Made by a program: the position numbers and the translations under genes. Of a DNA stretch of 64,000 nucleotides, positions 3,939-5,087 are shown in pieces. Source of the stretch: an uncultured Pelagibacteraceae bacterium. Its GTDB lineage: Bacteria; Pseudomonadota; Alphaproteobacteria; Pelagibacterales; Pelagibacteraceae. The notes under the pieces were generated by a model. It was not told where the DNA came from. It made no database searches and saw only the letters and a list, made by a program, of their open reading frames with translations. The DNA lies in contig CACMRM010000002.1 of the NCBI GenBank assembly GCA_902616145.1, positions 1 to 64,000 on the forward strand. Direction: 5' to 3'. How positions within the stretch are numbered: the stretch's first letter is position 1; each line of letters begins with the position of its first letter.

Positions 3939-4015
<77 letters not shown>

Positions 4016-4020
4016 ATAAA

Positions 4021-4224
4021 TTATTTTTTTTTTATGTTTATTGCTTGTAGTTTGTCTTTTTCCTCTTTTATATCGTAACAGATTACTTGCTCTTCCTTAA
4101 GAACTCTTAACTTTGACTCTTCAAGCGCAGAAACATGTAAAAAAATATCCTTTTTTGTTTTATCATCTGTTATAAATCCATATCCTTTTTTAGCATTGAA
4201 CCACTTCACTTTACCAGACGGCAT
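4021..4224 (-). CDS. cold-shock domain protein
   Basis: MPSGKVKWFNAKKGYGFITDDKTKKDIFLHVSAL; start placed at ATG 4224, preceded by AGAGGA, rather than track start 4239. Confidence 0.93.
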   Translation of the reverse strand: MPSGKVKWFNAKKGYGFITDDKTKKDIFLHVSALEESKLRVLKEEQVICYDIKEEKDKLQAINIKKK

Positions 4225-4257
4225 TTTAAATCCTCTCATTTTAATTAAATCTAATAT

Positions 4258-4452
4258 TTAATATCTATTTTTAAGTTTTTGGAGTTTTTTAATTCTCTTT
4301 AGATTCTCTGTTTGAACTCTCTTTTTCCTCTCTGAGGGTTTTTCATAAGTGCTTTTCATTTTCATTATTTTAAAAAAACCTTCTTTTTGAAGTTTCCTTT
4401 TAAGAACTCTTATTGCTTGTTCAACATTATTATCTTTAACGTCTATTTTAAT
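4258..4452 (-). CDS. rpsU: 30S ribosomal protein S21 (probable ATT start)
   Basis: (M)KIDVKDNNVEQAIRVLKRKLQKEGFFKIMKMKSTYEKPSERKKRVQTENLKRIKKLQKLKNRY; preceded by GGAGG-TTTTT-ATT; no ATG/GTG/TTG between the upstream in-frame TAA and the conserved body. Confidence 0.88.
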   Translation of the reverse strand: MKIDVKDNNVEQAIRVLKRKLQKEGFFKIMKMKSTYEKPSERKKRVQTENLKRIKKLQKLKNRY

Positions 4453-4502
4453 AAAAACCTCCAGTCGTTTTGATGCTTGTTATCATTTGAATCTTAATTT
4501 GT

Positions 4503-5087
4503 CTATAGTGATGCCGCTTGCGCCTTTTTTTCTTCTCTTATTTTAGCTTTTTTCTCTCTTTCAACTCTTCTTTTAGCTTTATCTAAACTTTTTTGAAAAG
4601 CTTCTTGAGAACATAAAGCTAAAATTACTGGGTCTCTGGGCTTTAAATTTGAAAAATTCCAATAACTTCTTTTCCTAATTAATGAAACTGTTCCTTTTGT
4701 ACTGCCTACAAGCTTAGAAATCTGGCCATCTGTTAATTCAGACGCATTTTTACAAAGCCATAAAATTGCATCAGGCCTATCTTGTCTTTTAGATAAAGGA
4801 GTATATTTTGGTTTCTTTCTCTCTTTGAGTTGGACTTCATCTAGTTTTTTTATCAAATTTAATTTTTTTGTAGGATCTTTAGAGCAAGTCTCTATTTCAC
4901 TTCTAGATAATTGGCCAGCTAAGATTGGATTATAAGCTTTAATACCTTTTGCTACATCTCCGTCTGCAATGCCTTTAACCTCTAGCTCATGCAAATTACA
5001 AAATTCAGCGATTTGCTTGAAAGTTAAAGTAGTATTTTCAACTAACCAAACAGCTGTAGCTTTTGGCATGAATGGCGCATCTGGCAT
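4503..5087 (-). CDS. DUF1013 / TrcR-type cell cycle regulator
   Basis: MPDAPFMPKATAVWLVENTTLTFKQIAEFCNLHELEVKGIADG matches the alphaproteobacterial DUF1013 family. Confidence 0.85.
   Translation of the reverse strand: MPDAPFMPKATAVWLVENTTLTFKQIAEFCNLHELEVKGIADGDVAKGIKAYNPILAGQLSRSEIETCSKDPTKKLNLIKKLDEVQLKERKKPKYTPLSKRQDRPDAILWLCKNASELTDGQISKLVGSTKGTVSLIRKRSYWNFSNLKPRDPVILALCSQEAFQKSLDKAKRRVEREKKAKIREEKKAQAASL

Follow-up and report, generated by a model that had tools for sequence, protein, structure and literature searches.

Comparative evidence for an AUU start codon paired with a strong Shine-Dalgarno sequence at the ribosomal protein gene rpsU of SAR11 bacteria

Introduction

AUU, AUC and AUA (together AUH) form the class of start codons disfavoured by initiation factor IF3, as described for infC of E. 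coli, and GTG and TTG starts are discriminated far less by this factor. AUH starts with a strong Shine-Dalgarno sequence (SD) and rpsU genes with a regulatory SD are both kinds of arrangement already known. The best-described case of the latter is rpsU of Flavobacterium johnsoniae, whose strong-SD mRNA is translated better by ribosomes lacking the encoded protein bS21, so that a feedback loop is formed (McNutt 2023, PMC9976891); Tyr54 of the Flavobacterium bS21 contributes to sequestration of the anti-SD. For E. coli, bS21 is described in another paper (PMC13009471) as hindering extended SD pairing.

The rpsU locus of SAR11 bacteria (Pelagibacteraceae) described here resembles that of F. johnsoniae (PMC9976891) in its exceptionally strong SD, in the SD-poor genome around it and in the intact anti-SD CCUCC, but it belongs to another lineage, starts at AUU, AUA or AUC, exchanges this codon jointly with the SD, and encodes a protein in which Tyr54 is not evident. 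Like infC genes with AUU or AUA starts, it serves the translation machinery and has a clear SD before a codon of the class that IF3 discriminates against; the gene concerned, however, is rpsU, and infC of the same genome has a different start. Conserved non-canonical starts with a strong (extended) SD have also been described for cvfC1 (AUU) and ccpN (AUA) of Staphylococcus aureus (PMC13009471); these are other genes in another phylum, and the available part of that paper describes no natural exchange of both elements. The conserved GTC start of Streptomyces sigR, which is repressed by IF3 (PMC5472188), differs in codon, gene and lineage. Homologous bS21 proteins are encoded by phages, including SAR11 phages such as HTVC008M (PMC9723584, PMC6375957), but the viral genes start at ATG, TTG or GTG, and the AUH start belongs to the host. 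Neither a conserved AUH start with SD on rpsU in SAR11, with its natural exchange, nor any relevant report of AUU or GTG starts at rpsU or of AUU starts in SAR11 was found in the open-access literature searched.

Results

Start codon of rpsU

The window, by which we mean the whole 64,000-nucleotide stretch of Pelagibacteraceae DNA analysed, contains a bS21 reading frame with the following features.

4258..4452, minus strand: rpsU, ribosomal protein bS21, 64 aa, stop within the coordinates; reads MKIDVKDNNVEQAIRV...KNRY
4450..4452, minus strand: ATT, almost certain start codon of rpsU; this codon is ATT, ATC or ATA in 110/121 distinct leaders and ATG in the other 11
4458..4462, minus strand: Shine-Dalgarno GGAGG of rpsU, 5 nt before ATT; its pairing energy would rank about 9th against 954 genes
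4480..4485, minus strand: tandem in-frame stops TGA TAA before S21, by which an upstream start is excluded

The protein matched the S21 profile in a Pfam search (PF01165, E 1.4e-14, 54 bits against a curated cut-off of 27); the frame 4258-4452 encodes the sole S21 of the genome, and the protein is conserved across Pelagibacteraceae. On the minus strand the frame reads TGA (4485-4483) TAA (4482-4480) CAA GCA TCA AAA CGA CTG GAG GTT TTT ATT (4452-4450) and continues AAA ATA GAC GTT AAA GAT AAT AAT. Re-reading this strand confirmed the sequence-only reading, which had described an S21 frame without a canonical start and with ATT 5 nt after GGAGG: ATG, GTG and TTG are absent between the in-frame stop and the conserved body. 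Two marks of infC-type AUH genes, the lack of a usable AUG, GUG or UUG and a strong SD at normal spacing, were thus found at rpsU. The span first given for the gene, 4258-4480, was correct at the gene end (4258), but 4480 belongs to the upstream in-frame stop, the start codon lying at 4450-4452. The gene had also been described as absent from the supplied ORF track, and the standard ORF list indeed contains just a 35-aa internal ORF at this locus; rpsU is therefore missed unless ATT is permitted as a start.

The start was compared among 121 distinct leaders of the family. All named members of this sample are Pelagibacteraceae (SAR11), and single-cell genomes of Candidatus Pelagibacter ubique are among them. 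ATT was found in 107 of them, ATC in 2, ATA in 1 and ATG in 11. A pattern search of 197 genomes of the order gave 128 matches to the AUH form (126 ATT, 2 ATC), all in Pelagibacteraceae, and the ATG form was found 11 times in a search of 397. The sister family has ATA at its rpsU start (ATC once among 30 loci), behind AAGGAGG. Since ATG stands at exactly the ATT position in 11 relatives, this position is the real start, and a start there gives an N-terminus equal in length to the common alphaproteobacterial form xQVxVRDNN. The proposal of ATT as the start of rpsU is strongly supported by the 121 leaders of the family, and we regard it as almost certain that SAR11 rpsU is translated from this codon. 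A record titled Rhodospirillaceae (NZXH01000013.1) carries a typical SAR11 rpsU locus and is probably mislabelled.

Joint exchange of the SD and the start codon

Family comparison revealed an SD in 110/110 AUH leaders and in 0/11 ATG leaders. The SD of the AUH leaders has the form GGRGG, at a spacing of 5 nt in 95/110 and of 4-9 nt in 109/110. Median pairing energy with the 16S tail was -11.4 kcal/mol for ATT leaders versus about +1.4 for ATG leaders; these energies come from another program than those of PMC9976891, and the limit of -13 kcal/mol used in that paper is not applicable to them. An ATG leader without SD is exemplified by ttaaaaaaatatATGAAAATAGAA. Leaders with AUU have the SD as well, whereas one group has neither and starts at AUG without SD. 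Relatives carrying ATG had been named beforehand as evidence that would speak against an ATT start; such relatives do exist (11 genomes), but as all of them are without SD, they fix the start position and show a linked exchange, and ATT is not refuted. The 11 ATG genes encode a nearly identical protein, and their nearest coding sequence also has ATG in 10/11; the near identity of the protein suggests that the ATG group without SD may go back to a single evolutionary event. As judged from these leaders, the pairing of SD and start codon points to an evolved switch that may control how S21 is made. Most Pelagibacter-type leaders have an in-frame TTG at codon -4, inside the SD. Automatic annotation may pick this TTG in Pelagibacter and so give the protein a false N-terminus (MEV...).

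The background was surveyed over the whole genome (1,037,790 bases; 954 long ORFs with an early ATG, the start calls being crude). GGAGG or AGGAG is correctly placed before the first ATG in 29 of the 954 genes (5 at the control position), and 673 do not have even a 3-base SD match, though the 16S tail retains CCTCC, an intact anti-SD. The pairing energy of the rpsU SD would rank about 9th against these 954 genes, so that one of the strongest SDs of the genome stands before one of its weakest start codons. A scan for other AUH genes (strong SD and ATH, no earlier canonical start) gave 41 candidates in the genome, of which four were translated and the rest judged by eye, homologues not being used; none was as convincing as rpsU, and others may exist. 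The infC gene of this genome, near position 38006 of contig C4, starts with GTG and has no SD; in the sister family infC has ATA or ATC behind AAGGAG.

Promoter-like element and neighbouring genes

Upstream and downstream of rpsU the window contains further features on the same strand.

4503..5087, minus strand: trcR, upstream neighbour of rpsU (Pfam PF06242, 9.7e-56)
4500..4505, minus strand: -35-like element TAGACA, overlapping the trcR stop codon
4477..4485, minus strand: extended -10-like element TGATAACAA, its hexamer 17 nt after TAGACA
4021..4224, minus strand: csp, cold-shock-domain protein (MPSGKVKWF..., PF00313 1.2e-22), between rpsU and tRNA-fMet in the genus
3939..4015, minus strand: initiator tRNA-fMet, anticodon CAT (ARAGORN), the sole initiator tRNA gene of the genome

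The element T[AG]GAC[AT]-N14-TGnTA is present upstream of rpsU in 121/121 family leaders, in which the end of the -10-like hexamer lies 18-27 nt (in one case 31 nt) from the start codon, and similar elements of the form TGGACA-N14-TGnTA precede rpsU in several other Alphaproteobacteria. We infer that this is a putative rpsU promoter, with a predicted transcript start at ~4470 and a leader of roughly 18 nt. The stricter form T[AG]GACA-N14-TGnTA has one occurrence in this genome, and a generic promoter of the genome was rejected on this ground.

Genes rpsU, csp and tRNA-fMet form a compact minus-strand cluster (window 3939-4452). The tRNA-fMet gene lies downstream of rpsU on the same strand in every Pelagibacteraceae locus with a long enough flank, either 3-18 nt directly after the rpsU stop, as in roughly half of the remaining loci of the family, or at about 235-243 nt with csp between. 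It was not found within 1.5 kb of rpsU in the sister family, and the link was absent within the stretches examined of other Alphaproteobacteria. From this arrangement, rpsU and the initiator tRNA gene probably share a transcript. Three G-C pairs in the anticodon stem mark tRNA-fMet of E. coli. The stem of the tRNA-fMet in the window (3939-4015, minus strand) is TCAGG/CCTGA, an A-U pair replacing one of the three, and two relatives (L024, L110) have CAAGG/CCTTG. Such an A-U pair might relax start-codon selection. A special initiator tRNA for AUU was not seen among the three CAT tRNAs of the genome, one of which is the initiator.

rpsU in other Alphaproteobacteria and in phages

Automatic reading of 60 other alphaproteobacterial rpsU genes, a sample composed partly of best-scoring matches and partly of hand-chosen genes, gave 34 GTG, 12 TTG, 10 ATG and 4 ATC or ATA starts; in two of these 34 genes (L170, L266) the GTG called overlaps the SD, and the more probable start of both is ATC or ATA. 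The control gene for bS20 in the same class had ATG in all 17 genes recognised, and rpsU at non-alphaproteobacterial loci of the phylum sample had ATG in 23/24 and TTG in one. Avoidance of AUG at rpsU is, as read from these starts, an alphaproteobacterial trait with SAR11 as its extreme. Among the 60 genes, weaker codons (GTG, TTG) do not come with a stronger SD than ATG; the coupling seen in SAR11 is hence not class-wide.

S21 genes on viral contigs start with ATG (57), TTG (21) or GTG (1), all 79 being complete, and one further gene is incomplete. Among named SAR11 phages, HTVC008M, Aegir and Kolga have ATG and Mosig has TTG. According to these predicted starts, phage S21 genes are without the AUH start of the host; a benefit of this to the phage is a matter of speculation.

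Discussion

Our preferred reading, to which we give a rough probability of 0.42, is that the rpsU start of SAR11 acts as an SD-obligate site, at which S21 would be made only by way of SD pairing; the 30S subunits involved would plausibly be those without bS21, as in Flavobacterium. Most SAR11 genes combine an AUG start with a weak or absent SD, and an AUG at rpsU could accordingly be read by any 30S subunit. Replacement of AUG by AUU would close this SD-independent route, so that initiation would then need pairing with the 16S tail. As bS21 adjoins the helix formed by the SD and the 16S tail, subunits without bS21 would pair best with the rpsU SD; bS21-free subunits would thus make bS21, and synthesis would stop as subunits become complete. 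With the locus, and probably the transcript, held in common with the initiator tRNA, S21 output would perhaps be set at the level of translation rather than of the transcript. In an SD-poor genome, strict SD dependence would require removal of AUG, which would explain why AUU and SD occur in the same leaders and are missing from the same leaders.

The linked exchange, the SD-poor genome, the class-wide avoidance of AUG, the link to tRNA-fMet and the Flavobacterium precedent speak for the SD-obligate reading. Against it count the ATG group without SD, which lives without the arrangement, the tRNA link missing, within the stretches examined, from the sister family and from other Alphaproteobacteria, and the GTG and TTG rpsU genes of other Alphaproteobacteria, whose SDs are not stronger than those of ATG genes. 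Furthermore, by a rough positional match Tyr54 of the Flavobacterium bS21, involved in hiding the anti-SD, is apparently not conserved (position 54 of 7jil_z stands opposite Arg53 if the alignment, known from match ranges only, is ungapped); the anti-SD pocket of Flavobacterium may therefore not exist here.

An alternative, which we hold to be unlikely though the strongest of those considered, is IF3-sensed control as at infC: AUU would be rejected by IF3, S21 would rise when 30S subunits outnumber IF3 and fall at other times, and the strong SD would merely compensate for the weak codon. Codon changes in the family mostly stay within the AUH class (107 ATT, 2 ATC, 1 ATA), in keeping with this alternative, and the ATA and ATC starts of infC in the sister family, the IF3-repressed GTC start of Streptomyces sigR (PMC5472188) and the AUU and AUA starts of S. 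aureus, which with extended SDs give about 10% of AUG output (PMC13009471), point the same way. However, the classical form of IF3 feedback is absent here, and the analogy with infC is weakened, because infC of this genome starts at GTG without SD; many other Alphaproteobacteria, moreover, have at rpsU the codons GTG and TTG. The suggestion, originally made by analogy with infC, that AUU holds S21 low or makes its synthesis sensitive to IF3 is a possible one, and the comparative data fit dependence on SD pairing at least as well as sensitivity to IF3.

Less probable still is a constant throttle, by which an abundant transcript needed for the sole initiator tRNA would carry a poor start codon that keeps S21 low without regulation. 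In its favour, the rpsU genes of the family, some of them followed by csp, precede tRNA-fMet by 3-18 or about 235-243 nt, one shared promoter-like element lies upstream, and this genome has a single fMet gene. Retention of the SD in 110/110 AUH leaders counts against it, since a throttle could do without a strong SD, and so do the AUH starts of the sister family, in which no tRNA-fMet was found within 1.5 kb. In addition, genes of this SAR11 genome by default begin with AUG and have no SD, so that throttling of the ATG group is not obvious.

A start elsewhere is very improbable, whether at CTG or TTG at codon -4, at codon 3 (ATA) or through a frameshift from an upstream ATG. Codon -4 is TTG in 51/110 and CTG in 24/110 AUH leaders, codon 3 is ATA in 117/121, and there is an ATG (or GTG) farther upstream that is out of frame. 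Codon -4, however, belongs to the SD and is CAG, CCG, CGG, TCG or a stop in other relatives; an upstream CTG start, which had been raised as an objection to ATT, is contradicted by this variation, and TTG or CTG at codon -4 was rejected as not conserved. In the 11 ATG genomes it is codon 1 and never codon 3 that is replaced, and the ATA codon is far from the SD. The upstream ATG or GTG is made up of A or G and the TG of the promoter-like TGnTA element and is found in each of the three frames with respect to S21 (69/35/6), and a leader peptide or frameshift from it was rejected since the frame is not kept. Sequencing error or gene decay has a negligible chance: ATT is found in >100 independent genomes, including single-contig ones, which excludes the error at ATT considered beforehand, the protein is conserved and the only S21 copy, and no support for either was found.

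Extension of the SD-obligate reading to a bS21 loop throughout SAR11, and in weaker form in Alphaproteobacteria at large, joined in Pelagibacteraceae with the initiator tRNA and accompanied by SAR11 phages free of the AUH start, is doubtful as a whole on present comparisons. SAR11 are among the commonest bacteria of the ocean, and an order-wide conserved AUU or AUA at a ribosomal protein gene is unexpected; standard gene finders would miss rpsU or give it a wrong start. Because AUU with SD and AUG without SD both occur naturally, SAR11 offers a ready test of the trade-off between SD and start codon in SD-poor genomes, and autoregulation by bS21 becomes testable outside Bacteroidota. Attention is also drawn to how AUG is avoided as the rpsU start across Alphaproteobacteria, and the finding bears on the reason for the presence of S21 genes in SAR11 phages. 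If the loop is true, AUU would block SD-independent initiation, and bS21-free 30S subunits would selectively translate rpsU; in Pelagibacteraceae, a transcript shared with the sole initiator tRNA would then couple two determinants of initiation.
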